DNA from: Nitrospira sp. LK70
Lineage (GTDB): Bacteria; Nitrospirota; Nitrospiria; Nitrospirales; Nitrospiraceae
Length of the DNA: 42,082 bases
Reading direction: 5' to 3'
Assembly: GCA_011090425.1 (NCBI GenBank)
Contig: PHGD01000024.1
Location: 1-42,082, forward strand
Notes under the pieces: generated by a model
What the model was told of the DNA's origin: nothing
The model's database searches: none
What the model saw: the letters and a program-made list of their open reading frames with translations, nothing else
Made by a program: the position numbers and the translations under genes
Shown: in pieces, positions 3,836 through 26,599 of the stretch
Layout of the letters: each line of letters begins with the position of its first letter
How positions within the stretch are numbered: the first letter of the stretch is position 1

Positions 3836-6800
3836 TTATCTGGACTTGGATGAAGCGGCTGAAGTTTTCGCAGAAGCGGCAGACGTTTGGACAGCAGGAA
3901 TCTCTACCACCACATCCGACTGAGGATCGGCATCTTGATCCTTCCCATCCCGCCCGACACTGTAAAGAAGGCCTTTTTTCATGTTCACCAACATCGGCAA
4001 TCCCGTATAGGGGTCATAGAAACTTTGTCCTGCTTTCGCGATCCTTGTGAGGAGATCTCCATCTAGAGAGCCACGTCTGAGCCAGGCTTGTAAGCTGGCA
4101 AGCCGGAGGTGGGCCTCTGTATCGACCACGAATCCGTTGTACCGGTCCCATGGAGCAAGCGGTTCTAGACCGACAATATTCTCGATAGGATTAGTGAAAT
4201 AGTCCGTCAGGCCGGATGCCGGAAAGTGTATGTAGGTTTTCCACTTCGGCAATGACCCATATCGCCCTTCGCCGGCAGCTTTGTACGACGCGTCGTAATA
4301 TTCTGCATAGGCGTTGAGACGGCGTTGCACCGGCAAAGGGAGAGCCAATGCCACCATCTTGTACAACGGCTGTTCTTCAGCCCTCACGGCTTTCAGCTGA
4401 GCGTCGTACATCTTTGAAGCGACGACTAGTTCGCTCTGCATGGGCCAGCGCAGCGAGAGCTCCACCTGATCAAGCGGCCGAAGGAATTTCGAGATGCGGC
4501 CCAGATATTTTCCGTCGAAGTCAGAACGGACGAGTAACCCCGAGGCGATTGCGATATCATCATTGATCGCCTGCAGGGCCAGCATTTTCACGGCAAGGGT
4601 CCTGGCTTGACCCAGGATGATGCGCCACGTTTCCATGTCCGTTTCAAGTCGTTCGACGCCGATATCGGCACCTTGCAGAAAGCCATCCGACACATGGAGT
4701 TGGTGAGCAAAGACCATTGCGGTACAAGAAGGAGCAGTAGGTTGACCAAACCCCCAATCTTCAAAGGGAAGCTTTTTCCACTGACCATATCGATTGAGCG
4801 TCGATTGATGCTCATTGCTCCATCCCTTAATGGTGTCTTGATGGGACTTGAACTCACCGAGGGGATCTGATCCGCGAACCCACCCGCGCATGACATCGGC
4901 TGATGCATTTGCCCCCTTGATCGTCCTCGATCTCGATCCACCAAAACAGGCCGACGCAGAATCGCCATCGTTCACCTCAGACTTCCGATCATATCCCGCC
5001 TGTATCGGATCGTGACCGACCGGCGCGTCAATCCCGAGGAGGAGAAAGTAGCCGTTTTTCTTGAAATCCGACAGAGTCCGTTGAGGAGTGGTCGTGAGGC
5101 GTTGAAATGCCGGAGACGGTGATTCTTCCATGATAATCCAGGTCAGTCCGACAGCACCGATTCCTAACACCATCAGAATCACGGAGAGCATCACCAGACT
5201 CACACATGTCACCACAATAGCCCGCGTGGTCGAGAAGCAGGAGCCGACAAATCCCGCAATCGCAACGCGGGCTCGACTCAGCGTCGTACTGGATTTTCGA
5301 ACTGGTTTCAACTCCACTACATGTTCATGTGGCTCAGTCGGTCTGACATTTCGGGATGATTCAAAGCGCGCATCAACTGCGGCTGCAGCCACTGACGTAG
5401 ACCGGGTGACTTCCTGCCGTTCTGAAATCAACGGGGGCGCCTGGGCAAAAGGCGTGGCTTGAGATGGCTCGATAAACCGAATCGATTCTCCAGCTTTGAC
5501 CCATTCCGCTTGTGCGGGCACTGGCTCAGGAACCGGTGCAGGAATGAGAGTTCGCACCTCAACAATCGCCACTGCCTGCGGTTGCTCCTCCCGGACCTGT
5601 ACCTCGGTCGGCTCTTCACTGAGATGAGGACCGGTCGCCTTTTCAGACGGCAGTTCCAAAATATTGTGTTGCGTAAGTAGCGGGACGGAAGATGGAATCT
5701 CGCTGGTTTCACCACTCAACGGCTCGCAGGTCGGTTGTGATGGGGCAGCGGGATGTTCTGCCGTAGATTCCTGATCGAGGTTCTGAGCGGTAATTATCGT
5801 ACGATCAGCATCCGCCATCAAAACGGGGGCGGCACTCTGAGACGAAACCGCTGCAGGAGACACTACATCGTCTGTGACCTGTCCATTCGCATAAACCGAC
5901 GATATTCTCGTTTTGAGAGAGGCTTCCGAAGGCGGCGATGCAGACATCGTAGGACCGCTCACCACCGGAAGCTGTTGGTCCAGTTCTGCCAAGGCAGGGG
6001 CGCTTTCTGGCATGGAAGTGGTTTGTCCCAAATCAGCAACCGGTATCTCAGGCTCAGTCGAGACCGGTATCTCACGATCCGGAGTAATCGAAAATGCTCC
6101 CGTTTCTGCAACAGGGCGAGGTGGAGAGATCGGAGGTTGTGCTTGATCTTCACCTATTCTCGTTACCAAATCCTTGTCAGCTTCACCAGCTGATTGAACT
6201 ATCGCTGACTCCGTGTCCTCGGCATCCGGCTCAGCTGTTTGCGCCGGGAGAATCGAGATGACCGACTCCTGAACTTGATCCCAAGGCATCGGCGCAATTT
6301 GAAATCCAGATGCGGTTTGGTCTCTCAACGACACTGATTCTTCTCGCTTCGGAATTTCAACCGCTTGATGTTCTAACACTTGTTCCTGGGGTGGGGAGGC
6401 GACTGCGGGAAGTGCTTCCTCGACGTTCGTTTGTGTTACTTCAGCTGGGGAGACATTTGCTGAATGATCACTTCCGAATTTCCATGCACTATTAAAGACT
6501 GATTCCCATGAGAAGCCTGGTTGCTTCCATGGTGCTGAAATCTCATTGGCTGAAACCGACTCGGGATTCGATGGAGCACTGGTCTCAGGAGAGGCTTCAG
6601 CAACGACTTCTTTTGAATTAGTGTCGACAGGCTGCTGGAGGGAGGGTTGTCGATCCTCGGCCTCTATTGGGCCAGCGATCGACGATTCCTTGTTCAAGGA
6701 GGCGGGTGCTGATATCTCTTCCATCTGGGAAGAGAGTGTGCCGCCGGTAGCATCGAGGGACTGTACTGTGGGTTCAAGCGATGGTACCGAAGAATCGGCA

Positions 6801-7966
6801 GTCTCCGTGGGTGCGGAAACCAGGGATGAGCCACTTACACCAGACGATGCCCTTGGTTCAACCTCGGCCAATAAACTGTCTTGCTGTTGAGCTTCGGCAT
6901 GACCACCTGTCGACACAGCTGGATCCCACCCAGGTTGTGCCTCTGATCTCTCCGCATCGGGTACGGATGAGGAAGCGGATGGATGGCAACCTCCAAGAGC
7001 AACTTGTCCGGAACAATCATCCGTCTGAGGTCCAGAAGGAACACTCTTAAATTCACGCGTGTAAGTTTCTTCCCCTGCATCGCTTCCCCCTTCATTCGCG
7101 CTGCTCGCTGCCTGCTCTTGTAACGGTGGATCAGCGAGCCGCAATTCTCCATGGAAAGTCAGTCCTGGCTGTGCTGGAAGGTCCGTGATCGTCGGCGGAA
7201 TAGGAAATCCTGAGAGGCCCGAGTCCTCGACTACTTTGCGGTCCTCCGGCACCATCGTCTGAGCATCCTGAATTTCCCGCGGCATCACCCCATCCACCGG
7301 TTCACAACCTGCCTGAGTACCCTGACCTCCCTCAAGCATGTCGAGTGATGGAGCGACAATCGATTGTCCCGATTCGCTGGGCTGACGGGCCAGCAACTCA
7401 CCGGTTTGTGCGTCGAAGAAGGAGGCCAATCGAAAGGCCTCCGGACTCGCGGGGGCAAGCTCTCGTATTTTTGCATAGAGTAGAGGGGCATGGCGTGGAT
7501 TGTCGGGATCAGGGTCTTCGATCAGGATATCGATCGCCTTGGCATACTCAGCCGCAGCCTCGAGTGCATCTCCTTTCTCCTGATAGAGCGTCCCAAGTTT
7601 CTCCAGGAATGGAACGCATCGCGGACCGGCGGCTAAGTACTCTCGAAGCAACGATTCTGCGAGCCAATAATCTTGACGCTGAAATGCTTCGCTGATGAGT
7701 GAGTCAAAGGCTTCTCTCGCCGGGATAAGGCTCCCGAGGCGAAGGTGGAGGGTAGCGAAAAGTCGCCGCGCCTCCATGTTGTGAGGATCGAGTGTCAGCA
7801 ATTCCTTCAGAGCGACAGAAGAACGCCCATACTTTCCCGCATTCATTTGCGTGATGGCTTCCTCAAGAAGAGCGGTCTTCCTGCTGTAGCCCACCACACC
7901 ACGCTTGTGGCCATGGCTGGCCTGGGTTTTATCAGATTTTAGAGGGAGTTTTTTGTTTGCACGCAC
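3836..7966 (-). CDS. Giant TPR / disordered-linker / single-TM protein with pseudopilin-like C-terminal tail
   Basis: A 1376-residue protein starting at GTG. Residues about 30-200 are tetratricopeptide-type helices (NAGKYGRSSVALKELLTLDP, LRLGSLIPAREAFDSLI). Residues about 200-865 are low-complexity, rich in Pro, Ser, Glu, Ala and Gln with very few aromatics, typical of a disordered linker. One membrane helix lies at about 915-945 (VTCVSLVMLSVILMVLGIGA). The C-terminal region (about 950-1376) begins NGYFLLLGIDAPVGHDP and ends with DPYTGLPM..LLYSVGRDGKDQD..SDVVVEI, a motif shared with the C-termini of type II secretion/type IV pilin-like proteins. Predicted topology is cytoplasmic TPR and linker, periplasmic C-domain. 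It is divergent from the secretin gene at 8646 with a 679-bp gap, so a role in that envelope machine is inferred. Start and exact function are uncertain; no intact named family is recognised. Confidence 0.75.
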   Translation of the reverse strand: MRANKKLPLKSDKTQASHGHKRGVVGYSRKTALLEEAITQMNAGKYGRSSVALKELLTLDPHNMEARRLFATLHLRLGSLIPAREAFDSLISEAFQRQDYWLAESLLREYLAAGPRCVPFLEKLGTLYQEKGDALEAAAEYAKAIDILIEDPDPDNPRHAPLLYAKIRELAPASPEAFRLASFFDAQTGELLARQPSESGQSIVAPSLDMLEGGQGTQAGCEPVDGVMPREIQDAQTMVPEDRKVVEDSGLSGFPIPPTITDLPAQPGLTFHGELRLADPPLQEQAASSANEGGSDAGEETYTREFKSVPSGPQTDDCSGQVALGGCHPSASSSVPDAERSEAQPGWDPAVSTGGHAEAQQQDSLLAEVEPRASSGVSGSSLVSAPTETADSSVPSLEPTVQSLDATGGTLSSQMEEISAPASLNKESSIAGPIEAEDRQPSLQQPVDTNSKEVVAEASPETSAPSNPESVSANEISAPWKQPGFSWESVFNSAWKFGSDHSANVSPAEVTQTNVEEALPAVASPPQEQVLEHQAVEIPKREESVSLRDQTASGFQIAPMPWDQVQESVISILPAQTAEPDAEDTESAIVQSAGEADKDLVTRIGEDQAQPPISPPRPVAETGAFSITPDREIPVSTEPEIPVADLGQTTSMPESAPALAELDQQLPVVSGPTMSASPPSEASLKTRISSVYANGQVTDDVVSPAAVSSQSAAPVLMADADRTIITAQNLDQESTAEHPAAPSQPTCEPLSGETSEIPSSVPLLTQHNILELPSEKATGPHLSEEPTEVQVREEQPQAVAIVEVRTLIPAPVPEPVPAQAEWVKAGESIRFIEPSQATPFAQAPPLISERQEVTRSTSVAAAAVDARFESSRNVRPTEPHEHVVELKPVRKSSTTLSRARVAIAGFVGSCFSTTRAIVVTCVSLVMLSVILMVLGIGAVGLTWIIMEESPSPAFQRLTTTPQRTLSDFKKNGYFLLLGIDAPVGHDPIQAGYDRKSEVNDGDSASACFGGSRSRTIKGANASADVMRGWVRGSDPLGEFKSHQDTIKGWSNEHQSTLNRYGQWKKLPFEDWGFGQPTAPSCTAMVFAHQLHVSDGFLQGADIGVERLETDMETWRIILGQARTLAVKMLALQAINDDIAIASGLLVRSDFDGKYLGRISKFLRPLDQVELSLRWPMQSELVVASKMYDAQLKAVRAEEQPLYKMVALALPLPVQRRLNAYAEYYDASYKAAGEGRYGSLPKWKTYIHFPASGLTDYFTNPIENIVGLEPLAPWDRYNGFVVDTEAHLRLASLQAWLRRGSLDGDLLTRIAKAGQSFYDPYTGLPMLVNMKKGLLYSVGRDGKDQDADPQSDVVVEIPAVQTSAASAKTSAASSKSR

Positions 7967-8645
7967 ACAACAACCTTAGCAGATCCCTACATCTGAGAGT
8001 CTGTATTTACGGCCCATTTCCCTCCCCACTATCCCCTTAGGAGTGGGCATTGACATAGGGATGAAATCTTTTTGGGCACTGCAACTTGGATGCCCAGCTC
8101 TCAAATGAGTGACCAGATCAAATGTTTGAAAATTAAGGGCCTGACCGAGGAACGTTCATTTCATTTCCATCGCCCATCCAATTTTGGACGGACCGTTGCC
8201 CTTCCTGATTGATCAATCGTAGAGCGGCACAAAATCAGATATGCGATGAGAGAAGCAGATCAATCAGTGCGTTGGGATAATGTACGGAGAACATGACGTA
8301 CTACAGTCGACCCACACCACAACTATGACCGCACAGCCTGCCTGAACCTGCAAGATGCTCGTCATGTCGTAGCTGCGTTTCTAGGCACAGGCTCGTGACT
8401 CGTCACACATATAGCCTCTCTTTCTCGGATGTTTTGTGAGAGTCTTTACCGATCTGCGAATAGCCGGCTCCGCGGCTCAAGGAAAGAATCAAGCTGTGGA
8501 AATAGACCCCTCTTCCACACACAAGCTTAGGCTCCCTTTCCAAAAACCTCATCCTGGTTGTGTCATTCGATACGCCTATGATACGGTCAGGCTCACGTAT
8601 TCGGCTCAATTGGTACCACCGATACCACCGAATCAATAGTCCATC
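7967..8645. other. 679-bp divergent intergenic region
   Basis: The region separates the TPR/TM protein (minus) from the secretin (plus), so promoters for both are expected. A TTGACA occurs at 8050-8055 but without a convincing -10 at standard spacing. TATGAT at 8577-8582 is a weak candidate -10 for the secretin gene. No coding sequence or strong hairpin was seen; short reading frames here have no recognisable features. Confidence 0.35.
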
Positions 8646-10223
8646 GTGCAAGCCCTTTCAATAGGTTGTCGTCCATTGAAAACAACCAGGAGACTTGAAG
8701 CCTGTCTGGCTTTGTTCCTGTTTCTCTCCTTGGCCATCCCTCCTCCTCTATTCTCGCAGGGTACAGGAGGCCACCCAGCGAAGGTGGCGCTAGATTTTAG
8801 CGATGTGGATGTTCCGATCTTTGTCCGCTTTATCAGCGAACTGACCGGGAAGAACTTCGTCTTGGATGAAACCATTAAAAAACAGGGGGGGAAAATTTCA
8901 GTGTTTTCTCCCACCAAGGTTTCGTCAGAGCAGGCGTACAACATGTTCGTCGCGGCATTGGAAGCCGCTCGGTTGGCAGTCGTTCCCAAAGGGGGGAATG
9001 TGTATCAGGTCGTTCCGATGGGGGATCTACCTCCCGAACGCGGTGTATTCGTGTACAAACTCAAGAACGCCAATGCCACAGATCTCGCTGCCGTCTTGAC
9101 GAACCTGGTTGCACGCTCACAAACCGTTGCACAGATGACGCCCGGCACGAGGCCCCCGATCAGACCCTTGACGGAATTCGAGGCTCCGGTCCAAGTGTTT
9201 GCCGATAAGGCAACGAACTCGATCGTGATCAGTTCGACCAAGATCGCCTGGAATCATCTCCACCCAGTGATCCGCGACCTGGACATCAAGCGCAGGCAGG
9301 TATTCGTGGAAGCCGTCATTCTCGAGGTGCAAGTCGACCGGTTGAGACAGCTCGGCACCGATCCCACGCAGATCATCGCTGTAGGAGGGAATGATATGAT
9401 TCGGGGGCTCGTCGGACTCAACCGAACACCGGAGGACATCTCAACTCTTGCGGCGGCCATCGCAGGTAGCGTGGCCACGGGCGGTACACTCCCAGCGGTG
9501 ATGAACACGGTTAATGTCCGCGCCTTCCTCCATGCCCTGCTGAGTATGACCGACACCAACGTCCTCTCCACTCCGCAGGTGCTGGCTGCGGATAATCAGA
9601 AAGCCAAGATCGTAGTCGGCGAGAATCGTCCTTTTCCAACCGGACAGGCCCAAGGCATCACGGGTGGGACCCTCGTGACAATTGAGCGGAAAGACGTAGG
9701 TGTTACCTTAGAGTTGACACCACAGGTACTCGAAGATGAGTTAATTCGCCTTGAAATCAAGCAAGAGATCACGGCGATCGCAGACAATGTGGCTCAAACG
9801 ATCGGCACCGGCACCTCCTCTGTCCCGGTCGGACCCACAACGACCAAGCGATCCATGGAAACAACGACGATTGCCCAGGATCAACAGACGCTCGTTATAG
9901 GAGGATTGGTGCGTGACAATATCACACTCAGTGAACAGAAAATTCCATTGCTGGGAGACATTCCGTGGATCGGCTGGCTGTTCAAGTCTCAGACTCGCAC
10001 GAGCGAGAAACTCAATCTCCTTGTATTCCTGACTCCTCACGTGGTGCGAGATCAGAGCGACATGGTCGAATTGAACGCGAGAAAGGCTAGGGATGCGAAT
10101 TCTCTGCAACGGGAGAACCGCATCGAGGAACCTACTCGGCTGAAGCAAGATCTGCTTGAACGACTTGAGCTCCCGTCGACAGTCGCTCCGTCCTCCTCAA
10201 CGGAAAACCCCACCAAGCCTTAA
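8646..10223 (+). CDS. Secretin (GspD/PilQ superfamily), short form
   Basis: A 525-residue outer-membrane secretin. The GTG start gives a signal peptide with twin arginines at 15-16 and a hydrophobic core (CLALFLFLSLAIPPPLF). Next comes an N0/STN-like domain (VALDFSDVDVPIFVRFISEL..NFVLDE) and one N1-type ring domain (VFVYKLKNANATDLAAVLTNL). The C-terminal secretin barrel runs from about 216 (VFVEAVILEVQVDR) through TNVLSTPQVLAADNQKA and LVIGGLVRDN to IPLLGDIPWIGWLFKS and LLVFLTPHVV. GspD is usually about 650-700 residues with N0-N3, so this copy probably lacks one or two ring domains. Secretins form multimeric pores for type II/IV machines; no ATPase, platform or pseudopilin gene is in the window. 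Divergent from the TPR/TM gene and followed by PilZ. Confidence 0.9.
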   Translation: MQALSIGCRPLKTTRRLEACLALFLFLSLAIPPPLFSQGTGGHPAKVALDFSDVDVPIFVRFISELTGKNFVLDETIKKQGGKISVFSPTKVSSEQAYNMFVAALEAARLAVVPKGGNVYQVVPMGDLPPERGVFVYKLKNANATDLAAVLTNLVARSQTVAQMTPGTRPPIRPLTEFEAPVQVFADKATNSIVISSTKIAWNHLHPVIRDLDIKRRQVFVEAVILEVQVDRLRQLGTDPTQIIAVGGNDMIRGLVGLNRTPEDISTLAAAIAGSVATGGTLPAVMNTVNVRAFLHALLSMTDTNVLSTPQVLAADNQKAKIVVGENRPFPTGQAQGITGGTLVTIERKDVGVTLELTPQVLEDELIRLEIKQEITAIADNVAQTIGTGTSSVPVGPTTTKRSMETTTIAQDQQTLVIGGLVRDNITLSEQKIPLLGDIPWIGWLFKSQTRTSEKLNLLVFLTPHVVRDQSDMVELNARKARDANSLQRENRIEEPTRLKQDLLERLELPSTVAPSSSTENPTKP

Positions 10224-10384: not shown

Positions 10385-10738
10385 ATGGTAGACCAACCGG
10401 TTAACTGGCGACTACACCAGCGGCTTCCTGTGGCATATCCTGTGATATTCGGAGGCGCCCCGTTTGTCGGTGAAGGAATGCTGTCGGACCTCTCCATCTC
10501 GGGCTGCTCCGTTAGCTGTGAGCGGACCGTCCTCAAAGGTAGCTATATCAAGCTGAGCGTTGTGTTGCCCGATCCAACATCCTCTCTCTTCATTGAGTTA
10601 GGGAAAATTCGCTGGGTTCGTGAAAATGCCTTTGGCGTTGAGTTCATTCGTGTGCCCACCCTCACTCGGCACCGATTGGATCGAGTCATGTCTCAAGCGC
10701 CGACCCTAGACCTGAACTGCTTGCCGACATTGGTCTGA
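10385..10738 (+). CDS. PilZ-domain protein (c-di-GMP binding)
   Basis: A 117-residue single-domain PilZ protein. The RxxxR-type element is seen as RLHQRLPV at 9-16 and the DxSxxG element as DLSISGCSV near residue 35; both are the c-di-GMP contacts of the family. A good ribosome site (TAGGAGG) precedes the ATG by 8 nt. PilZ proteins couple c-di-GMP levels to motility, pili or envelope processes. It follows the secretin gene on the same strand (161-bp gap), fitting a role with that export system, although no partner can be proved. The C-terminal 45 residues are duplicated, in broken form, at 12336-12470. Confidence 0.88.
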   Translation: MVDQPVNWRLHQRLPVAYPVIFGGAPFVGEGMLSDLSISGCSVSCERTVLKGSYIKLSVVLPDPTSSLFIELGKIRWVRENAFGVEFIRVPTLTRHRLDRVMSQAPTLDLNCLPTLV

Positions 10739-10974: not shown

Positions 10975-11856
10975 TTACGGCTTTATGTCATAGTGAAGCG
11001 ACAAGCCGAAATGCACCAAGATCGTATTGATCGTGGAATCATATGTATTAACATACGGACCGGGCCCACTAGACAATATAGCGAGACTGCCCATATCGGA
11101 ATTCCCATACCGATCTGTCGTCAGCCCGCTGTGATTGGCCATGAGATACTTCGCCTCGACAAACGCAGCCAGGTACTTGAAGATATGCGCCTTCACTCCT
11201 CCCACTCCCATCCACCCGACAGTCGTGTCCCGTTGGTCGGTGATGGCGTTGAGAAGATTACCCCCCCGGAATCCACCTGGCTTCATCTCAATCTGATGCG
11301 CTCCCACGCCGATCCCGAAATATGGATGCCACCGCCCGTTGGGATAGGTCTCGGAAATCGCCATCGGGTAGCGAACCAGGAAATTGCCGCCGACGTAGAT
11401 GCCTTGTATCTCAGTCGTGGTGCCTTGATTGGCGAGCCCATTAATATTCCCAGCCCCCGTGGGGCTATTATTATACCAGTCGACGCAGCAGCCCACGTCC
11501 GGGTACCAAAGAAAGCCGGTAATTTCAAAACCGAGATCGAATCCCGCCAGTTTGCTTCTGGTTGGGAACCAAACCCCCGCGTTGCCACCGACCGAGAAAG
11601 AATCCTGATAGGGGATATTTGGCATCACCGTAGGCTGTGACCCGTCAGTAAACGTAGCGGTCTCACTGCTCGGCAGTGCTATGCCCGCCATAAAGGAAAG
11701 ATACGGCTCGATCGTCCCGGATGACATGGTTGGGGGATTAGGCGATAGGGCATAGGGATCGGCGACCCGTTGGCTGTACGGATCTTCCGCCCGAGTGACC
11801 TCAGCGTAGCCAACGACACAGAGAAGGCAAATCATCGCCGAAATTCTCGTTTTCAT
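10975..11856 (-). CDS. Outer-membrane beta-barrel protein, copy 1
   Basis: A 293-residue exported protein: signal peptide MKTRISAMICLLCVVGYAEV with likely cleavage after TRA, then a segment EDPYSQRVADPYALSP and alternating amphipathic strands such as AGFDLGFEITGFLWYP, GIYVGGNFLVRYPM, HPYFGIGVGAHQI and LAAFVEAKYLMA, ending in NTILVHFGLSLHYDIKP. This is the pattern of an 8-strand OmpA/OmpW-like barrel. A conserved CC pair (DVGCCVDW) lies in an extracellular-loop-like region. The ATG overlaps the stop of a 55-codon ORF by ATGA, so the two are probably translationally coupled. It is a tandem paralogue of the gene at 12644-13525, about 70% identical by eye, with differences concentrated in loops. 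Substrate or partner unknown. Confidence 0.85.
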   Translation of the reverse strand: MKTRISAMICLLCVVGYAEVTRAEDPYSQRVADPYALSPNPPTMSSGTIEPYLSFMAGIALPSSETATFTDGSQPTVMPNIPYQDSFSVGGNAGVWFPTRSKLAGFDLGFEITGFLWYPDVGCCVDWYNNSPTGAGNINGLANQGTTTEIQGIYVGGNFLVRYPMAISETYPNGRWHPYFGIGVGAHQIEMKPGGFRGGNLLNAITDQRDTTVGWMGVGGVKAHIFKYLAAFVEAKYLMANHSGLTTDRYGNSDMGSLAILSSGPGPYVNTYDSTINTILVHFGLSLHYDIKP

Positions 11857-13949: not shown

Positions 13950-14822
13950 CTACCGTCCTAGCGCTTGTTTGACCGCCGCACCGATCTCAGCTGGATTCTT
14001 GACGACCTTGACGCCGGCCGCTTCCAGGGTTTTCATCTTTTCAGCTGCGGTGCCTTTGCCACCAGAGATAATCGCGCCGGCATGGCCCATGCGGCGGCCT
14101 GGAGGCGCGGTAATGCCGGCGATGAAGCTGATCACAGGTTTCTTGATGTTGTTTTTAATGAACTCAGCCGCTTTTTCCTCGGCGTCGCCGCCGATCTCTC
14201 CGATCATGACGATCGCTTGAGTTTCGGGGTCCTTCTCAAACAGCGGCAAGACATCCACGAATCCCGTGCCGTTCACTGGATCACCGCCGATACCGACACA
14301 GGTCGTCTCTCCCAATCCTAACGTCGAGAGTTGGTGCACTGCTTCATACGTCAAGGTGCCGCTGCGAGAGACGACTCCAACGACACCCTTCTTATGGATA
14401 AATCCCGGCATGATACCGATCTTGGCCTCGTCTACCGTGATCACGCCGGGGCAGTTTGGTCCGATCAAACGACCGTCGCGGCCGCGAAGCGCACGTTTCA
14501 CCTTGACCATGTCGTTGACGGGAATCCCCTCAGTGATGCAGATGACCAACTTGATACCGGCATCGGCTGCTTCGAGAATCGCGTCGGCACAGAACGGCGG
14601 CGGCACGAAGATGAGCGAGGTATCGCACTCGGTCTTCTTCACCGCATCGGCCACCGTGTTGAACACCGGGATGCCTTCCACTTCTTGCCCGGCCTTCCCC
14701 GGCGTGACTCCCGCGACGACTTTTGTCCCGTAGGCTTTGCATTGGATCGCATGGAACGACCCTTCCTTGCCCGTAATGCCTTGCACCACCACCCGCGTAT
14801 TTTTATTGACTAAAATGCTCAC
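13950..14822 (-). CDS. sucD: Succinyl-CoA synthetase alpha subunit
   Basis: A 290-residue SucD. The start is taken as GTG at 14822, giving [15 protein letters not shown] preceded by GAGGGAATC; the longer ATG frame (14879) would add 19 residues absent from the family. The N-terminal CoA-binding Rossmann domain shows [10 protein letters not shown] and the C-terminal part carries the phosphorylated histidine in GHAGAI (near residue 246). With SucC it forms the ligase that makes succinyl-CoA from succinate, CoA and a nucleoside triphosphate, a reversible TCA step used here in the reductive direction. It is the last gene of the rTCA operon, 184 bp after sucC; that gap contains a long inverted repeat. 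The first ten residues closely match those of AclA in the same operon, reflecting common ancestry. Confidence 0.95.
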
Positions 14823-14879
14823 GATTCCCTCTTTTCTTCCTCGCCTCCCCATCTTCGGGGAAAGCTGCTCACCATTCAT

Positions 14880-14999
14880 GTGAGGCGCGGGGCCAGGTCC
14901 CTACTGCGCGCATGCAACGAGCACCGCCCTCTATTTTGAAATCACTATAGGTCTTGCGTGCGCGTTGCGCGAGCAACGGGACCTGGTCCCGTGACTCAC
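14880..14999 (-). repeat. Inverted repeat in the sucC-sucD gap
   Basis: Left arm 14880-14901 (core GGGGCCAGGTCCC) pairs with right arm 14978-14999 (core GGGACCTGGTCCC), 19 of 22 positions, around a 76-nt centre. The centre holds a smaller hairpin GTTGC-GCGA-GCAAC near 14964-14977. This is the 184-bp space between sucC and sucD. It could be a processing or stability element of the polycistronic mRNA. Confidence 0.65.
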
Positions 15000-15006
15000 C
15001 AAGCTC

Positions 15007-16185
15007 CTACGCCGTTTTCCCCGTCAATCTCACAATCTTCTGCGCCGCCTCCCACAGATCGTTCGCCACTTCGAGCCTCAAGCCCGACTCGGCCAACAGC
15101 TTGCGGCCCTCCTCTGCGTTCGTCCCTTGCAGACGCACAACCAACGGCACCGAGATCTTCACTTCCTTGGCCGCTTCGATCACTCCATGCGCGATCCGCT
15201 CGCAGCGGACGATGCCACCGAAGATATTGATGAAAATACCCTTGACGTTCGGGTCTTTCAGGAGAATGCGGAAGCCGGCGGCCACCGTTTCTTTCGTCGC
15301 GCCGCCGCCCACGTCCAGGAAGTTGGCCGGCTCGCTTCCGGCCAGCTTGATCACGTCCATCGTCGCCATGGCAAGGCCTGCACCGTTCACCATGCAACCG
15401 ATATTGCCGTCGAGCTTCACATAGTTCAGGTTGTTCGCCGTGGCTTCGATTTCGAGCGGCTCTTCTTCATTCAGATCGCGCATCTTTTGCACGTCTTCAT
15501 GCTTAAAAAGGCCGTTGTCGTCGAACGAGACCTTGCCGTCCAGGGCCACCAGCGTTTTTTCCTTCGTGATGATCAACGGGTTGATCTCGACCAGCGCCGC
15601 GTTCTTCTCCATGAACAGACGATAGAGATTTTCGAGCAGCTTGACGAAAGGATTCATCACCGTCGGTTCGATGGATTGGAGGCCGAGGGCAAAGGCGACG
15701 TTGCGCCCGTTGTGTCCCTGGAATCCCACCGCCGGATCAATCGCCTCCTTGACGATCTTTTCCGGAGTATGGGCGGCCACCTCCTCGATTTCCATGCCGC
15801 CTTCGGTGCTGGCGATGAAGGTCGGCCAACCAGTATCGCGATCGACCAAGATTGAGAGATACAGCTCCTTGGCGATGTTCGCCCCTTCCTCCATCAGGAG
15901 GCGATGGACCCGGCGCCCCTTCGGACCGGTCTGGTGCGTGACCAGCGTCTTGCCGATCAACTCCTTGGCCAAGCCGGCCACAGCAGCCTTATCTTTGGTG
16001 ATCTTGACGCCGCCGGCCTTCCCCCGTCCTCCGGCATGGATCTGGGCCTTGACGACGAATACTGGTGTATTCAGCTCGTTGGCCCAGGCCGTCGCAGCGT
16101 CCGGGGAGGTGATCTCCTTCCCGCGAGGCACCGGCACGCCGAATTGCGCGAAGAGAGACTTGGCTTGGAATTCATGCACATTCAT
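15007..16185 (-). CDS. sucC: Succinyl-CoA synthetase beta subunit (ADP-forming type)
   Basis: A 392-residue SucC, the usual length. The ATP-grasp domain opens MNVHEFQAKSLFAQFGVPVP, with the nucleotide-binding lysine/glycine loop in VKAQIHAGGRGKAGGVK (residues about 45-60), the metal-binding LVEINPLI near 200, and the C-terminal CoA-ligase domain with GCMVNGAGLAMATMD and LDVGGGATKE. It is the nucleotide-binding half of succinyl-CoA synthetase. It sits between frdA and sucD in the same orientation, so fumarate to succinate to succinyl-CoA enzymes are adjacent. A 221-bp gap with inverted repeats separates it from frdA upstream. Confidence 0.96.
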   Translation of the reverse strand: MNVHEFQAKSLFAQFGVPVPRGKEITSPDAATAWANELNTPVFVVKAQIHAGGRGKAGGVKITKDKAAVAGLAKELIGKTLVTHQTGPKGRRVHRLLMEEGANIAKELYLSILVDRDTGWPTFIASTEGGMEIEEVAAHTPEKIVKEAIDPAVGFQGHNGRNVAFALGLQSIEPTVMNPFVKLLENLYRLFMEKNAALVEINPLIITKEKTLVALDGKVSFDDNGLFKHEDVQKMRDLNEEEPLEIEATANNLNYVKLDGNIGCMVNGAGLAMATMDVIKLAGSEPANFLDVGGGATKETVAAGFRILLKDPNVKGIFINIFGGIVRCERIAHGVIEAAKEVKISVPLVVRLQGTNAEEGRKLLAESGLRLEVANDLWEAAQKIVRLTGKTA

Positions 16186-16203
16186 TCTCTACCTCATTCA
16201 AAA

Positions 16204-16408
16204 AGGACTGCGACGGGAACGTTTCTTACTGCGCCCCTTCTCACCCACCCACCCTAAGGGCGCCGAGAGGCGCCCTTCACCCATTGCGAGCACCGCCAAA
16301 CAGAACTTGTTCGACCCGGAGCCCCCTCCAAATAATCTTGGCGACGGGATAAAATTCCATTTCGTGTGCCGCGTTGCGCGAGCACAAGAAATGCCCCGTT
16401 GCAGTCCT
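16204..16408 (-). repeat. Inverted repeats in the frdA-sucC gap
   Basis: Left arm 16204-16227 (AGGACTGCGACGGG...TTTCTT) pairs with right arm 16386-16408 (complement AGGACTGCAACGGG...TTTCTT), about 19 of 24 positions with one gap; the right arm overlaps the frdA stop codon. Between them a perfect hairpin AAGGGCGCC-GAGA-GGCGCCCTT lies at 16256-16277. No gene is seen in the 221 bp. Confidence 0.6.
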
Positions 16409-17990
16409 AACCCGCTTTCCTGGTATAGGCCGGCAGGATCATCGGTGAGATCACGCCGCTTACATTCCCGTGCTGCTTTGCCTCGGCGCGGAACCGCTCG
16501 AGATGCTCCAATGTGAGCTTGCCCTGCTTCATCGATCCGGCTCGCCCTGCCGCCGTCAAACCGGATCGCTTGCCGTAGACCATCAGGTCGAGGAGCGAGT
16601 TGCCCATCAATCGATTACGTCCATGCAGCCCTCCGGACGCCTCGCCGGCCACGAAGAGGTTCTTCACGTTCGTTTCCGAGTTCGTATCGATCTTCACCCC
16701 GCCGTTTTGGTAGTGCAGGGTCGGATAGATCAACACCGGGTCCTTGCTGATGTCGATGCCGAACCGCTCGAATTGCAGCATCATCGCCGGGAAATGTTTC
16801 TCCACTGTGCCAGCCCCGTGTTCGACATTCAAGATCGGCGTATCCAACCAGACGCCGACACGGCCCGACATCGTGCGGATGCCGCGGCCTTCTTCGCACT
16901 CTCGGATGATCGAGGACGACACCACATCGCGGGTATCCAGCTCGTTTACAAACCGATCGCCCTTGGCGTTGACCAGCTGGCCGCCTTCGGATCTGATGCC
17001 CTCCGTGACCAACGCGCCGATCAATTGCTCCGGATAGACGGCTCCCGACGGGTGGTATTGAAACGTGTCGATGTGCGCCAGCTTCGCTCCCATGCGGTAG
17101 GACAAACAGAGCCCATCGCCGGTCGCGCCGTAGTGGTTGCTCGTGGGAAATCCCTGAATATGAAGCCGGCCGATCCCACCTGTCGCCAGAATAACCGACT
17201 TGGCCGCGACCACGACATGGCGCTGATTGTCGAGATCTTTGAAGATCGCCCCGGTGCAAGCGCCGCTGTCGTCGCTGAGCAGTTCAATCGCCGCGACGAA
17301 TTCCAGCAGCTGAATCTTCTGGTTGAGGACCTCATCCTTGAGCACCCGCATGATCTCCAGCCCGGTATAGTCCGAGCAGGTCACGAGTCGTGGTTTGGAG
17401 CTGCCGCCGCCCTTTTTCACATGGAGGTTGCCGTCCGCCTGGCGGTCGAACAACACCCCAAGCTCAAGCAGCCACTTGGCGATCGATGGACCTTCCTCGA
17501 CCATGACCTTGAGCAGGGCATGGTCGTTCTCCATATGCCCACCCTTGAGCGTGTCGAGAAAATGGGTGACCGGAGAGTCCTCCGGTGCCACGGATACTTG
17601 CATCCCTCCCTGGGCCATCACGCTGTTTGAATCGCCCAACCGAAGCTTGGTCGCGAGAATCGTCTTCGTGCCGGCTCCGTGCGCGTGCAGGGCCGCTGCG
17701 CAGCCGGCTCCGCCGCCGCCGATGACCAGGACATCGGTCTGATACTGCGGCGTCAGGTCGAGATCGTCGTGAATGGGGCTATCACCTTCAAGCAGGGTGG
17801 CCAATTCAACCACAGTCTTCTCACCTTCGTTCGGACCGAACCGGATGGGCCGGTAGGCGCTGGCCCGGAAATCCGGATGGTACTTGTGAATCAGTTGGTC
17901 GCGGTCGGCGGGCGAGAATTTCGCGATGGTCTGCTTACGCCTGGCATCGCGAGTCTTGTGGACGATTTGCTGAAGTGCGTGGATGTCCAT
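16407..17990 (-). CDS. frdA: Fumarate reductase / succinate dehydrogenase flavoprotein subunit
   Basis: A 527-residue FAD protein of the SdhA/FrdA/AprA superfamily. The FAD Rossmann motif is VLVIGGGGAGCAAALHA (residues about 87-103), followed by the flavin-linked region GDSNSVMAQGGMQ and the substrate/capping segment FQYHPSGAVYPEQLIGALVT then EGIRSEGGQLVN. Near the C-terminus HYQNGGVKID takes the place of the common HYTMGGI. The protein is about 50 residues shorter than E. coli SdhA, with a reduced C-terminal domain. An extra N-terminal 80-residue region precedes the FAD domain. It reduces fumarate (or oxidises succinate) with FrdB, 86 bp upstream in the operon. No membrane-anchor gene is nearby. 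Confidence 0.93.
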   Translation of the reverse strand: MDIHALQQIVHKTRDARRKQTIAKFSPADRDQLIHKYHPDFRASAYRPIRFGPNEGEKTVVELATLLEGDSPIHDDLDLTPQYQTDVLVIGGGGAGCAAALHAHGAGTKTILATKLRLGDSNSVMAQGGMQVSVAPEDSPVTHFLDTLKGGHMENDHALLKVMVEEGPSIAKWLLELGVLFDRQADGNLHVKKGGGSSKPRLVTCSDYTGLEIMRVLKDEVLNQKIQLLEFVAAIELLSDDSGACTGAIFKDLDNQRHVVVAAKSVILATGGIGRLHIQGFPTSNHYGATGDGLCLSYRMGAKLAHIDTFQYHPSGAVYPEQLIGALVTEGIRSEGGQLVNAKGDRFVNELDTRDVVSSSIIRECEEGRGIRTMSGRVGVWLDTPILNVEHGAGTVEKHFPAMMLQFERFGIDISKDPVLIYPTLHYQNGGVKIDTNSETNVKNLFVAGEASGGLHGRNRLMGNSLLDLMVYGKRSGLTAAGRAGSMKQGKLTLEHLERFRAEAKQHGNVSGVISPMILPAYTRKAG

Positions 17991-18076
17991 GATTCAACCG
18001 TAGCAAGTGGGAAAGTTCAAAGGTTCACGATTGCCGCTGAACCATGACTGTAAGACTTTCACAGGTTCCAACTTTT

Positions 18077-18790
18077 TCATTTAACAGTCGCACAATGCTC
18101 TGCAAGTTCCTTGTCGTTCATCTTCAGTATGTTGTTCCACTCGTCGTTGAACCGACCGTCTTGAATTTCTTTGATGCGGGTATCCAGTCCGATCGGCTTT
18201 TCGACAAAATGCGCGCCCTGAGCCCGACTGACATAGAGCGCGACAAGATTCGGCGCGATATCGGCGATGCAGATCGGCGTGCACATGCCGCACATGACGC
18301 AGTCCATGAACATTTCGGAGACACTCTTGAAGTCGCCGAACACAGCCTTCCACACGCCCTCGCGCACGTCGATCCTCTGGGGACAGGCTTCGGTACAGGC
18401 ATTACAATTTCGACAGAGCGGCGCTTCCGGATAGAAATTGAACAGGTCTTGCTTCGGATCTTGGAGCTTCTGGATCTCGTAGGTAGCCTTGCGCGCCGGG
18501 AACGGCGGCATCATCGTGAAGCACATTCCATCTTGCACCGCCGTTTGGCAAGCCAGGCAAGTCTTCACTTTCGGATCGTCCTTGGTCCGGTAGTAGGTCG
18601 CGCAGGCGCCGCAGAACCCGCCGAGGCAGCCGATCCCCCGAACCACGTCGATGCCAGCGTACCACATGGCCTTTATGACCGTGATCCCTTCCGGCACCTC
18701 TACCTTCTTACCGGCGATCTCGATCGTGGCCATCCGTGGCTTCATCACCTCGGGCTGGTCGATGACGTTTTGGCTATCGTCCGTTGCCAT
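18077..18790 (-). CDS. frdB: Fumarate reductase / succinate dehydrogenase iron-sulfur subunit
   Basis: A 237-residue protein with an N-terminal plant-type [2Fe-2S] domain (CLGGFCGACATYY...TCLAC) and a C-terminal dicluster domain with CRNCNACTEACPQ and CVMCGMCTPIC. The last motif has four cysteines, which suits a [4Fe-4S] cluster rather than the [3Fe-4S] of classical SdhB; this is the arrangement known from non-classical (E-type) enzymes. It passes electrons between the FrdA flavin and an unknown partner. The ORF begins MATDDSQNVIDQPEVMKPRM; a later Met is possible because the family core starts at ATIEIAGKKVEVPEG. It follows icd in the operon, with a 120-bp gap containing an inverted repeat. 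Confidence 0.92.
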   Translation of the reverse strand: MATDDSQNVIDQPEVMKPRMATIEIAGKKVEVPEGITVIKAMWYAGIDVVRGIGCLGGFCGACATYYRTKDDPKVKTCLACQTAVQDGMCFTMMPPFPARKATYEIQKLQDPKQDLFNFYPEAPLCRNCNACTEACPQRIDVREGVWKAVFGDFKSVSEMFMDCVMCGMCTPICIADIAPNLVALYVSRAQGAHFVEKPIGLDTRIKEIQDGRFNDEWNNILKMNDKELAEHCATVK

Positions 18791-18833
18791 AGCTCTCAGC
18801 TTTCAATCGTCATAGCGTTGTTATTCAGAACCG

Positions 18834-18909
18834 AGGACTGAGTGCTGCGGACTGGGACCGATGCTCGCCCCAATCAAAACCCAGCCCTCAGTCCTCGCTA
18901 CTCGGTCCT
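18834..18909 (-). repeat. Inverted repeat in the icd-frdB gap
   Basis: Left arm from 18834 (AGGACTGAGTGCTGCGGACT) and right arm ending 18909 (complement AGGACCGAGTAGCGAGGACT) pair at 16 of the first 21 positions. The right arm stops 2 bp before the icd stop codon. The unit is closely related to the repeats at 23429 and 25332. Confidence 0.65.
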
Positions 18910-18910
18910 G

Positions 18911-23408
<4,498 letters not shown>

Positions 23409-23428
23409 GGCTTCACTCCTTCAATGTT

Positions 23429-23487
23429 CTGAGTGCTGGGTGCTGAGACTGGGCTCGCAACTCAGGGACTCAGCACTCGTTACTCAG
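23429..23487 (-). repeat. Inverted repeat in the aclA-acn gap
   Basis: Left arm from 23429 (CTGAGTGCTGGGTGCTGAG) pairs with right arm 23461-23487 (complement CTGAGTAACGAGTGCTGAG) at 15 of 19 positions. The right arm ends 3 bp before the aclA stop codon. It shares the GACTGAGTGCTG-like unit with the repeats at 18834 and 25332. Confidence 0.65.
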
Positions 23488-23490
23488 CAC

Positions 23491-25311
23491 TTACTTGAGA
23501 GGCGGCACTTCTCTTCGTTTGGGCGCCGCATAGTTCACCAGGTAATCGAACAGCCGGATCAAGCGGCTGTCCTGACGCTTCTGATCGACCCAGTGACCGA
23601 TCAATCCGATCGTGCGCGACAGAATGAAGAATCCGTTCAAACTGTCGACCGGGAATCCCATATCGACCAGCACAGCTGCCATCGTGCCGTCCACGTTCAG
23701 AATCAAATTATCCTTCTTCACCGCCGTCACCTGCTCCACCTCTAACGCGAAGTCGAGACAGGGCGTTTTGATATGCAAGCTCTTCACGTAACCCACCAGT
23801 TCCTTCACGCGCTTATCAGGGTTACGCAAGCTCTTCACTCGGTGCCCAATCCCTGGCACAGGCCCGACGTGCTTTTTCATGTAAGCCAGAAACTCGTCGA
23901 CTTTCATCTTGTTATCGACGGCATACTTGAACCAGCGGCCGGCATCCGTCACGGCGCCGCCGAAGCGCGGCCCGATCATGATCAAACCGGCTGCGACCGC
24001 TTGCGACAGCCCGATGCCGGCGCAGGCCGCGAGAATCGTCGCATAGGCACCGCTCACGCAGGGGCCGTGGTCGGCGGACAACATCATAATTCGCTTGATA
24101 ATTTCGGCCTCTTGCTTTGAGATCAGCCGCTTGTCCCAGAGCAAACCGATGACATGAGGAATTTCATACCCTTTATTGATAAGTTCGGAGGCAGGATAGC
24201 CGTCGTAGCAAGGTTCGTCCCCCCGGTCGTCGCTGATCGTGGTGCGGATGAGCGGCGCCACCACGACTTCGTCCGCCTTCATCGCTTCTTCGACGGTCTT
24301 GGGGAGCTTTGGAAGACTGACCGGCTCAATGAGCTCCTTGATCAGACCGGACTTCAAGAATCCCTGATAGGTGTCTTTAATCGCGGGACCAAGCGCACCG
24401 AACGTCTCAGGCACCAATGCCCCGGATTTCTTGAGGGCCTCTGACTTCGATCGGGCCGATCCTTCACCCTTCATCCCTTCCTTGGCGCCGGCATGGCCGA
24501 ACTTCATCCCCTTCGGCAAACTCTCCTGACAGAATCCTGAAACAACGCCGATCAGCTTGATCCGGCGCTTCTTCGCACCGTACCACTCAGCCGCCCGCTC
24601 TTCGAGATCGCCGCCCATTTCACCGACGATGACCACCGCCTTCGTCTGCGGATCATGTTCGAACATTTCGAGGTAACTGACGTAGTCGGTGCCGGGATAG
24701 GCATCGCCGCCGATGCCGATCGCCGTCGTGATGCCGTCGGCGAACTGCGAGCAGATCCAGATGATTTCGTTGGAAAGACCGCCCGACTTGGTGATGACGC
24801 CGAAAGAACCTTCCCGATAGAGCTTTGAGAGCACGAGGTTGTCGAACGCTCCACCGATCACGCCCAACCGGCAAGCGCCGGCGGAGATAATGCCGATGGA
24901 TGAGGGACCGTTGAAGACCTTGCCTAGCTTCCTGGCATGGGCGCCGAGCAGTTTCGCATCCTTCTCCGGCACACCCTCGGTGATCATCGAGACAACCTTA
25001 ATATGTGAATCATCCAACGCTTCCATCCCGCCCCTCATCGCGCGGTCCGCGCCGATGTAGACAAGGCTCGTGTTGATGGTCGAATGGTTCTTCGTCGCTT
25101 CCGCGATGGTCTTGTAGATTGGAATCGCGATCAAGCCGCTGCCGTAGGGAATCTCGTTGGTCTTGCCGGCGTCTGGCGGATAGACGAACGCTTCAACATT
25201 GAGCGGGCGCTTGATCAGGTAACAGAACTCCGCCATGCGGCGGGCAGCGTTGACACCTGCAGCACCCCCCTGAATCACCACGCGGGTGTCCTTATTTACC
25301 AAAATACTCAT
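23491..25311 (-). CDS. aclA: ATP-citrate lyase alpha subunit
   Basis: A 606-residue AclA: N-terminal CoA-binding/CoA-ligase domain (MSILVNKDTRVVIQGGAAGV) with the phosphohistidine in KFGHAGAKEG (His273), then a C-terminal citrate-synthase-like domain (about 350-606) with SADHGPCVSGAYATILAACA, GPRFGGAVTDAG, PVPGIGHRVKS and NVDGTMAAVLVDMGFP. This is the two-subunit bacterial/archaeal form of ATP-citrate lyase, which cleaves citrate to acetyl-CoA and oxaloacetate using ATP and CoA and is the diagnostic enzyme of the rTCA cycle. It follows aclB by 91 bp with an inverted repeat in between. The N-terminus is strikingly like that of SucD at the other end of the operon. Confidence 0.97.
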   Translation of the reverse strand: MSILVNKDTRVVIQGGAAGVNAARRMAEFCYLIKRPLNVEAFVYPPDAGKTNEIPYGSGLIAIPIYKTIAEATKNHSTINTSLVYIGADRAMRGGMEALDDSHIKVVSMITEGVPEKDAKLLGAHARKLGKVFNGPSSIGIISAGACRLGVIGGAFDNLVLSKLYREGSFGVITKSGGLSNEIIWICSQFADGITTAIGIGGDAYPGTDYVSYLEMFEHDPQTKAVVIVGEMGGDLEERAAEWYGAKKRRIKLIGVVSGFCQESLPKGMKFGHAGAKEGMKGEGSARSKSEALKKSGALVPETFGALGPAIKDTYQGFLKSGLIKELIEPVSLPKLPKTVEEAMKADEVVVAPLIRTTISDDRGDEPCYDGYPASELINKGYEIPHVIGLLWDKRLISKQEAEIIKRIMMLSADHGPCVSGAYATILAACAGIGLSQAVAAGLIMIGPRFGGAVTDAGRWFKYAVDNKMKVDEFLAYMKKHVGPVPGIGHRVKSLRNPDKRVKELVGYVKSLHIKTPCLDFALEVEQVTAVKKDNLILNVDGTMAAVLVDMGFPVDSLNGFFILSRTIGLIGHWVDQKRQDSRLIRLFDYLVNYAAPKRREVPPLK

Positions 25312-25331
25312 CGCAATCTCCTCTTTGCATC

Positions 25332-25397
25332 AGGACTGAGTGCTGAGGACTGAGGGCCAAGTGATCCTCCCTAACTCAGTCCACAGTCCTGAGTCCT
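25332..25397 (-). repeat. Inverted repeat in the aclB-aclA gap
   Basis: Left arm 25332-25354 (AGGACTGAGTGCTGAGGACT...) pairs with right arm 25375-25397 (complement AGGACTCAGGACTGTGGACT...) at 19 of 23 positions around a 20-nt loop. No T-run follows, so it does not look like a standard terminator; it lies inside the operon. Confidence 0.7.
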
Positions 25398-25402
25398 CGT
25401 GG

Positions 25403-26599
25403 CTATTTCTGAAGCGCTTTGTCGACGATGTCCGTCAGCGGAGTGTTGCGGTCGAAGACGTGAATGTCGAAGCCCTCGTCCTTCAGCGCACGCATCGCGT
25501 CAAGGCCTTCTTTTTCACGAGGCCCACCGCGGCGCACCCAAATTTTCACCCCCTTCAACTTGCCGTCACCCTTTGCCTTGCGAAATCCATTGATGATGCC
25601 GCCGAAGGTCTTCTTCACGTCGGTAAAATTGGCAATCGCCCCGCCGACGATGATATTCTTGATGCCGGGCAACGAGCAGACCTTTTCCGTCAGCACCTCA
25701 ACGGCCCAATCGGGGGGATCACCCGAATACTCGGCATAGTTCGCCAACTTGCCGCCTCGCGCCACGACGGCATCGGAGTAATAGACGCTCGCGCCGCCGC
25801 CGGCCGGCAACATCGCCGTATCGCCGCCTGGAATTTCGATGAATTTGACGGACCCTTTGATTTTGCTGTCGACCCCCATGACTTCCATCTCATCTCTACT
25901 GTAGGCACGCCCAAATTCTGCGGCGAACTGGAAATTCCAATCCGGATGGCGGAATTTGGCGTCACCGTCCAGCAGCGTCACGGCATCGAGCGCAATCAAC
26001 TCACCATCGTTCTCGCGTGTGACGACAGGATTCACTTCGAGATACTGCGCATCTTCGCTGTCGAAACAGGCAAACATCTTTCCGGCGAAGTCGGCCATCT
26101 TCTTGGCGACCGGGCCTGCAAATCCTGCATCTTTTGGGAGTTTTTCAAGCTGGTCCGCGGAAGGAGTTTGCCCGATATCGAGACACAACCGCTTCACTCG
26201 CTCCCAATTGGACTCCACTTCGATCCCGCCGCAATTGGCGACAAGGATCTCGACACCTTCCCGAGTGGACTTCACGGCGCAATAGTATTCCTCTTTGTGA
26301 GGAACCATCTCAGAGACAATGACCTGCGAGATGGTAATGCTCCCGACCTGACGGCCGATCATTTCTTTGGTTGCCGCCACCGCCCCATTCAGATCGAGGC
26401 CGACTTTCACCAGACCGAGCTTAAACCGGGAACCCAGCGCTTCATGCGCTTTGGCAACCAACTTAGTCTGTTTCATCCACTCGTTGACCTGCCCAAGCTT
26501 GGAGAGTTCGTCCGCGGAGGTGACAACCGCATAATGTGGAACGTGAATTCCCCACTTCTTCATCAATCCCATCCCGGGACCTTCCAACACCTTTGCCAT
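25403..26599 (-). CDS. aclB: ATP-citrate lyase beta subunit
   Basis: A 398-residue AclB, the ATP-grasp subunit of two-subunit ATP-citrate lyase. Landmarks are the opening MAKVLEGPGMGLMKKWGIHV, VKVGLDLNGAVAATKEMIG, the metal-binding YLEVNPVVTRENDGELIALD, and the C-terminal CoA-ligase-like part with PGGDTAMLPAGGGASVYYSD and IIVGGAIANFTDVKKTFGG. It phosphorylates the AclA histidine with ATP so that citryl phosphate and then citryl-CoA can form. It is the first gene of the rTCA operon, with a good promoter 45 bp upstream and an AAGGAG ribosome site. Confidence 0.96.
   Translation of the reverse strand: MAKVLEGPGMGLMKKWGIHVPHYAVVTSADELSKLGQVNEWMKQTKLVAKAHEALGSRFKLGLVKVGLDLNGAVAATKEMIGRQVGSITISQVIVSEMVPHKEEYYCAVKSTREGVEILVANCGGIEVESNWERVKRLCLDIGQTPSADQLEKLPKDAGFAGPVAKKMADFAGKMFACFDSEDAQYLEVNPVVTRENDGELIALDAVTLLDGDAKFRHPDWNFQFAAEFGRAYSRDEMEVMGVDSKIKGSVKFIEIPGGDTAMLPAGGGASVYYSDAVVARGGKLANYAEYSGDPPDWAVEVLTEKVCSLPGIKNIIVGGAIANFTDVKKTFGGIINGFRKAKGDGKLKGVKIWVRRGGPREKEGLDAMRALKDEGFDIHVFDRNTPLTDIVDKALQK

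Follow-up and report, generated by a model that had tools for sequence, protein, structure and literature searches.

Which machine, if any, does a large membrane protein serve when its gene diverges from that of a secretin? This question is raised by a stretch of 42,082 nucleotides of Nitrospira sp. LK70 (contig PHGD01000024.1), referred to here as the window, which is contig C60 of a source genome of 4.7 Mb in 201 contigs (G, C and L numbers designate genomes, contigs and loci). An initial annotation, made from the DNA letters alone, described a 1376-residue protein formed by a TPR domain, an acidic linker, one helix and a C-terminal domain (C-domain) of about 430 residues, divergent from a secretin with reduced ring domains, and proposed that the pair may be an undescribed variant of type II/IV machinery. 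Open reading frames, Pfam, AlphaFold2 (AF2) and composition confirm the large protein and its arrangement. The secretin is the displaced, short GspD of the cell's ordinary type II secretion system (T2SS). The large protein of Nitrospira-type bacteria is undescribed, and it is tentatively read here as an envelope scaffold of the FimV/HubP kind with an inverted domain order; literature searches that combined Nitrospira with terms for secretins, TPR, pili or polar landmarks gave no paper on it among the matches listed.

The secretin and its secretion system

According to Pfam, the window secretin comprises an N0 domain, one Secretin_N domain and the secretin core. With its single Secretin_N it is short of the usual N1-N2-N3 set, which bears out the reduced ring initially reported. 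It reaches 345.8 bits against the GspD model TIGR02517, for a cut-off of 351.35, and the gsp-linked copies of the same secretin type also remain below this cut-off (332.8 and 343.9 bits); the name GspD therefore rests on synteny and co-occurrence. The source genome harbors three secretins, one of which is found with PilMNOP-like genes on contig C185 and another with pseudopilins, F and E (by eye) on contig C45. Contig C137 carries a cluster of GspC, E, F, G, H, J, K, L, M and N-like genes, in which GspE, F, G, K and N score above curated cut-offs, GspC just below, and H, J, L and M weakly. No secretin occurs in the 20 kb read of this cluster.

In a sample of 51 genomes, hand-selected by the analyst and not random, the window-type secretin is present in 28 (at least 589 bits, the next best match having 104 bits), and the C137-type GspK occurs in exactly the same 28. 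In five genomes a distance of 7-14 kb separates this secretin gene from a gspK of the same orientation, and in G272 it directly adjoins gspC. Taken together, the gsp operon devoid of gspD, the 28 genomes shared with gspK and the proximity to gspK in five genomes identify the window secretin as GspD. Its gene has left the gsp operon and now lies beside the large-protein gene in genera g1, g12 and g15. Compared to the GspD of TIGR02517, it shares the N0, the N-domain, the secretin core and the association with gspK, but it differs by the single Secretin_N, the score below cut-off and the location outside the operon in the window genus. As to the machinery variant first proposed, the type II involvement stands, while the idea of the pair as a machine of its own is contradicted by the standard gsp set on another contig and by the gspD genes near gspK in five genomes. 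T2S and pilus genes are indeed found elsewhere in the source genome, in the C137 cluster and as the PilMNOP-like genes of C185.

To note, a further secretin of ~500 residues, 30-34% identical to the window secretin over the C-terminal half, was seen in G012:C2, G013:C103, G003:C104, G296:C1, G176:C1 and G268:C1. The GspE of the T2SS (L085, 11185-13272) matches the MshE-type cyclic di-GMP-binding motif with 35.8 bits, for a cut-off of 38, and judging from this match it may offer a more direct route of cyclic di-GMP control than the PilZ neighbour of the secretin, whose possible control of the pair is suggested by gene position only.

Architecture and topology of the large protein

A profile of the C-domain built from 33 sequences finds matches in 103 of the 395 genomes of the phylum, all but one of them in the window's family. 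These matches are of two kinds: long forms, with TPR, linker, transmembrane (TM) helix and C-domain (open frames of ~970-1750 residues), as in the window, and short forms with TM helix and C-domain only (~470-540 residues).

The N-terminus of the window protein is collinear with its orthologues from residue 1 onward. The TPR_16 family matches the protein with an E-value of 8e-7 and 29.8 bits, under the Pfam cut-off of 32.7, and a fold comparison of the TPR domain returned generic TPRs, including PilF and MamA, which is uninformative. Ahead of it, residues 1-24 (window 7895-7966) form a conserved Lys-rich tail, MRxDKKxPLKSDKK, of a charge opposite to that of the linker. The linker, over residues ~200-900, is rich in Ser, Ala, Pro and Glu and contains 107 Asp and Glu versus 38 Lys and Arg. 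Between the window and 11 orthologues its identity is 23-34% for most and 69% for the closest (L034), with 45-92% for the TPR domain and 39-83% for the C-domain.

In the 30 residues preceding the TM helix, Lys and Arg outnumber Asp and Glu in 33 of 36 long proteins, with a tie in three (L055, L065 and L164). This basic excess points to an N-in/C-out topology. The C-domains of the long forms possess exactly two Cys at fixed columns (30/30), Cys1007 and Cys1081 in the window protein, and these columns are devoid of Cys in the three short forms compared (3/3). The Cys pair and the charge bias both support a periplasmic C-domain, neither being a proof.

Tryptophan motifs in the linker

Despite its low identity, the linker carries a repeated motif centred on a Trp. 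MPW[DE] occurs in 101 copies across 35 of 36 linkers, for a mean of 0.08 after shuffling, with zero copies in L165; the wider consensus reads (A)PMPW[DE]QVEE...xIPP, and each linker with the motif harbors one to five copies. Scanning DNA for sequences encoding PMPW[DE] plus CA gave 15 matches in eight genomes, all 15 inside the large-protein gene when positions were compared, and zero in G180, which bears a looser motif. A second linker motif, of consensus FSW..VF..AW, has a near-invariant first Trp in an alignment of 27 sequences. When a disordered tether bears several copies of a linear motif, these usually bind a partner. The Trp motif is a new observation, and a literature search with its letters gave no match.

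Fold and relatives of the C-domain

The structure prediction of the C-domain with AF2 (33 sequences) gave a confident model, with a predicted local distance difference test score (pLDDT) of 83.6 and a predicted template modelling score (pTM) of 0.86. It consists of about twenty helices followed by a small C-terminal beta element. No known fold was confidently matched in the PDB: the best Foldseek E-value was 0.42, and the best VIA-align Z-score, 7.2, was found among generic helical repeats and within the helical background. A search of BFVD with the model gave no fold match either (best E-value 0.23), and PDB sequence searches were empty. Pfam provides no family for the C-domain or its three distant relatives, and on the 33 aligned relatives it reports two domains of unknown function, each touching one member only.

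The DPYTGLP motif announced in the initial annotation is present and is the most conserved stretch of the C-domain. Its first half persists in distant relatives as DPYTG.PM-like residues, while YSVG.DG is missing there. These relatives are stand-alone proteins of 441-491 residues without TPR, found in G079, G091 and G224, genomes that belong to two further families. A helix followed by a C-domain exists on its own outside the family. In the simplest history, a membrane-anchored domain came first and acquired TPR and linker later. Viral contigs and plasmids gave no relatives of the C-domain. Similar proteins presumably exist in Pseudomonadota.

In L080, L081 and L082, the short gene (TM helix and C-domain) is divergent from an uptake cluster of FecCD, periplasmic-binding and ATP-binding cassette genes (Pfam on L080). 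A large receptor-like gene (by eye) accompanies the cluster in these three loci, as does a CobA-type adenosyltransferase in L082.

Neighbourhood and co-occurrence with secretins

Among the 27 genomes possessing both genes, they are divergent and less than 5 kb apart in 23, with a gap below ~1.2 kb in 18, and lie apart in four (gene starts being approximate). The divergent arrangement is kept across three genera, so that the conservation of the two genes as neighbours is borne out in several genera and fails in a minority. Among 33 named loci, the secretin is located upstream of the large-protein gene in 15, each of which (15/15) also harbors the PilZ gene. The 18 others include L036, L043, L045, L048 and L052, with too little upstream DNA to judge, and the 13 loci L053-L065, where no secretin is present upstream (L053, among them, being without upstream DNA).

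The long form is found in 27 of 28 genomes with the T2SS versus nine of 23 without it (Fisher 7e-6 on the 51 genomes, ignoring ancestry and genome size). The nine genomes having the long form but neither GspD nor GspK are G093, G130, G157, G162, G172, G234, G176, G114 and G307, G114 being counted as a long form by open-frame length alone. Conversely, G244 possesses the T2SS and the large protein as a short form only. All 36 genomes with a long form possess one or more secretins, of whatever kind, while none of the six secretin-less genomes (G140, G343, G378, G191, G195 and G333) has a long form (Fisher 3e-4, same sample and same limits). The tie of the large protein to the secretion system is suggestive and not exclusive. 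A dedicated pair of large protein and secretin was rejected, as genomes exist with one and without the other.

A scaffold resembling FimV and HubP

According to PMC12918733, FimV and HubP, organisers of polar machines in gammaproteobacteria, are built from a periplasmic domain, one TM helix, an acidic cytoplasmic region of low conservation and a cytoplasmic TPR. The large protein appears to possess all of these parts, its cytoplasmic region being likewise long, acidic and poorly conserved. It differs by its N-terminal TPR, its C-terminal periplasmic domain, the absence of LysM, a periplasmic domain without a confident match to a known fold and the repeated Trp motif. No match to FimV_core (TIGR03505) was found in the source genome, where no control gave one either. 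Given the reversed order and a periplasmic domain unrelated by the tests made, the large protein does not belong to FimV proper, although it may act in a similar way. By this analogy it could be an inner-membrane envelope scaffold or hub, the reading that we favour with reserve.

The secretin forms the outer-membrane ring of the ordinary T2SS. In such a scaffold, the N-terminal TPR would be a cytoplasmic docking domain. The acidic disordered tether would present its one to five Trp-centred motifs, and would be followed by the single membrane helix and, in the periplasm, by a helical domain stabilised by a disulfide. The periplasmic domain may serve as an anchor, while the TPR and the repeated motif may recruit. 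Client proteins from machines that span the envelope (type IV pili and, where present, the T2SS) would most likely be fixed in this way at one site of the envelope. Architecture, conservation, motif, Cys pair and co-occurrence are observed directly; scaffolding and clients, as well as topology and disulfide, are what we infer for this protein. More ambitiously, it might be a second, independently built organiser of the envelope or pole in Nitrospiraceae, an inverted FimV-like protein in which a TPR and a multivalent Trp-motif tether were fused to an older stand-alone periplasmic domain to serve type IV pili and the T2SS, a proposal that we regard as rather unlikely.

Several results weigh against a scaffold of this kind. 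LysM is missing, TPR families being all that Pfam lists over the full length of the protein at an E-value of 0.1, and AF2 gave no confident docking of the first Trp motif to the TPR (pLDDT ~54 in the motif region). The co-occurrence is confounded, since the genomes that lack secretins are small, at 1.7-2.7 Mb, and the sample is hand-picked. Secretins are present without any C-domain protein in G146, G353 and G355, and with short forms or fragments only in G098, G174, G244, G312, G260 and G324. In clade-B genomes, finally, the large-protein gene lies amid unrelated genes, glycosyltransferase-like and MscS-like by eye, and an extracytoplasmic function (ECF) sigma factor gene.

Alternative roles

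The large protein might instead be an envelope sensor or assembly factor unrelated to secretins, beside which gspD would have come to lie by chance after leaving its operon. The differing neighbours of clade B fit this account, as do the short relatives adjoining a FecCD/BtuCD-type uptake cluster, the TPR-less relatives of other families and the nine of 36 long-form genomes devoid of this T2SS. However, chance sits poorly with a divergent neighbourhood in 23 of 27 genomes and three genera, and with a long form that is never without some secretin (36/36). Such a role is almost as probable as the scaffold.

It is unlikely that the large protein is a dedicated T2SS factor anchoring or assembling GspD in the manner of GspB/OutB, in which a single TM helix is joined to a periplasmic domain that binds the N0 ring of the secretin. 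GspB ties the secretin to the inner membrane, according to PMC9239104. The likeness is in the inner-membrane location, the single TM helix and the periplasmic domain predicted for the large protein, whose gene adjoins gspD in most genomes with both (23/27) and which is present in 27 of 28 genomes with the T2SS. Conversely, no match to GspB or to the GspC homology region was found by Pfam in the C-domain and its 33 aligned relatives, and the 1376 residues with TPR and long linker set the protein apart. This alternative is weakened by the nine genomes that keep the long form without GspD or GspK, which argues against exclusivity, and G244, with a T2SS and the short form only, also speaks against it.

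That the C-domain is a pseudopilin-like part of a filament machine, as its DPYTGLP...YSVGRDGKDQD motif had suggested by resemblance to the GspG end DPWGNPY...SLGTDGEVGG, is hardly credible: the likeness is limited to a short DP..G.P ... YS/SLG.DG motif within a different domain, hhalign against the GspG profile aligns 20 columns with a probability of 1.2%, a large helical domain precedes the motif in the AF2 model, neither an N-terminal prepilin helix nor a prepilin motif is present, and the distant relatives do without YSVG.DG.

Other features of the locus

The features of the two genes and the PilZ gene are collected in Table 1.

Table 1. Position of the features discussed, in window coordinates.
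Feature	Coordinates	Strand	Basis
Long-form protein, 1376 residues (TPR / acidic linker / TM / C-domain); GTG start	3836..7966	(-)	Open reading frame, orthologues
TPR domain, residues 25-182, nine helices	7421..7894	(-)	Pfam; AF2 on orthologue in same numbering, pLDDT ~95
First Trp motif copy, after TPR, degenerate: VMPREIQD, residues 227-234 (most orthologues MPW[DE])	7265..7288	(-)	Orthologue alignment
Acidic disordered linker, residues 183-900	5267..7420	(-)	Composition; orthologue identity
Second linker motif FSWESVFNSAW, residues 485-495	6482..6514	(-)	Conservation of W487 (90% or more)
Trp motif IAPMPWDQVQESVISILPA, residues 557-575 (window's good copy)	6242..6298	(-)	Motif scan, orthologue comparison
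Transmembrane helix, residues ~916-941	5144..5221	(-)	Sequence; one strong helix only
C-domain, residues 943-1376, helical, predicted periplasmic	3839..5140	(-)	AF2; conserved Cys pair
DPYTGLP...YSVGRDGKDQD motif, residues 1318-1345	3932..4015	(-)	Alignment, relatives, profile comparison
Short secretin, 525 residues, GspD of the C137 T2SS	8646..10223	(+)	Pfam; co-occurrence, synteny
PilZ-domain protein, downstream of secretin	10385..10738	(+)	Pfam

An outer-membrane-barrel-like gene (by eye) lies near gspD in the window (10975-11856), and a barrel-like gene of 298 residues (L163, 12431-13327) is found beside gspD in G160. In L158 (5381-9025), HDOD and GGDEF genes are inserted between gspD and the large-protein gene, which is followed by genes for an ECF sigma factor and a DUF3106 protein; by eye, these last two genes also follow it in L064 and L164. 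Further along the window (13950-26599), a run of reductive tricarboxylic acid cycle type encodes a succinyl-CoA ligase-type pair, a flavin adenine dinucleotide-binding protein, a monomeric isocitrate dehydrogenase, an aconitase and the ATP-citrate lyase subunits. Neither Rfam nor a tRNA scan found anything in the window.

Significance

The assignment of GspD mends the annotation of a T2SS that appears incomplete in these genomes. As far as the literature searched goes, the organisation of pili and secretion has been little studied in Nitrospira, the main nitrite oxidisers of water and soil. If the large protein is the scaffold favoured here, FimV-like organisers would have arisen at least twice, with the Trp motif as a concrete handle for finding clients.

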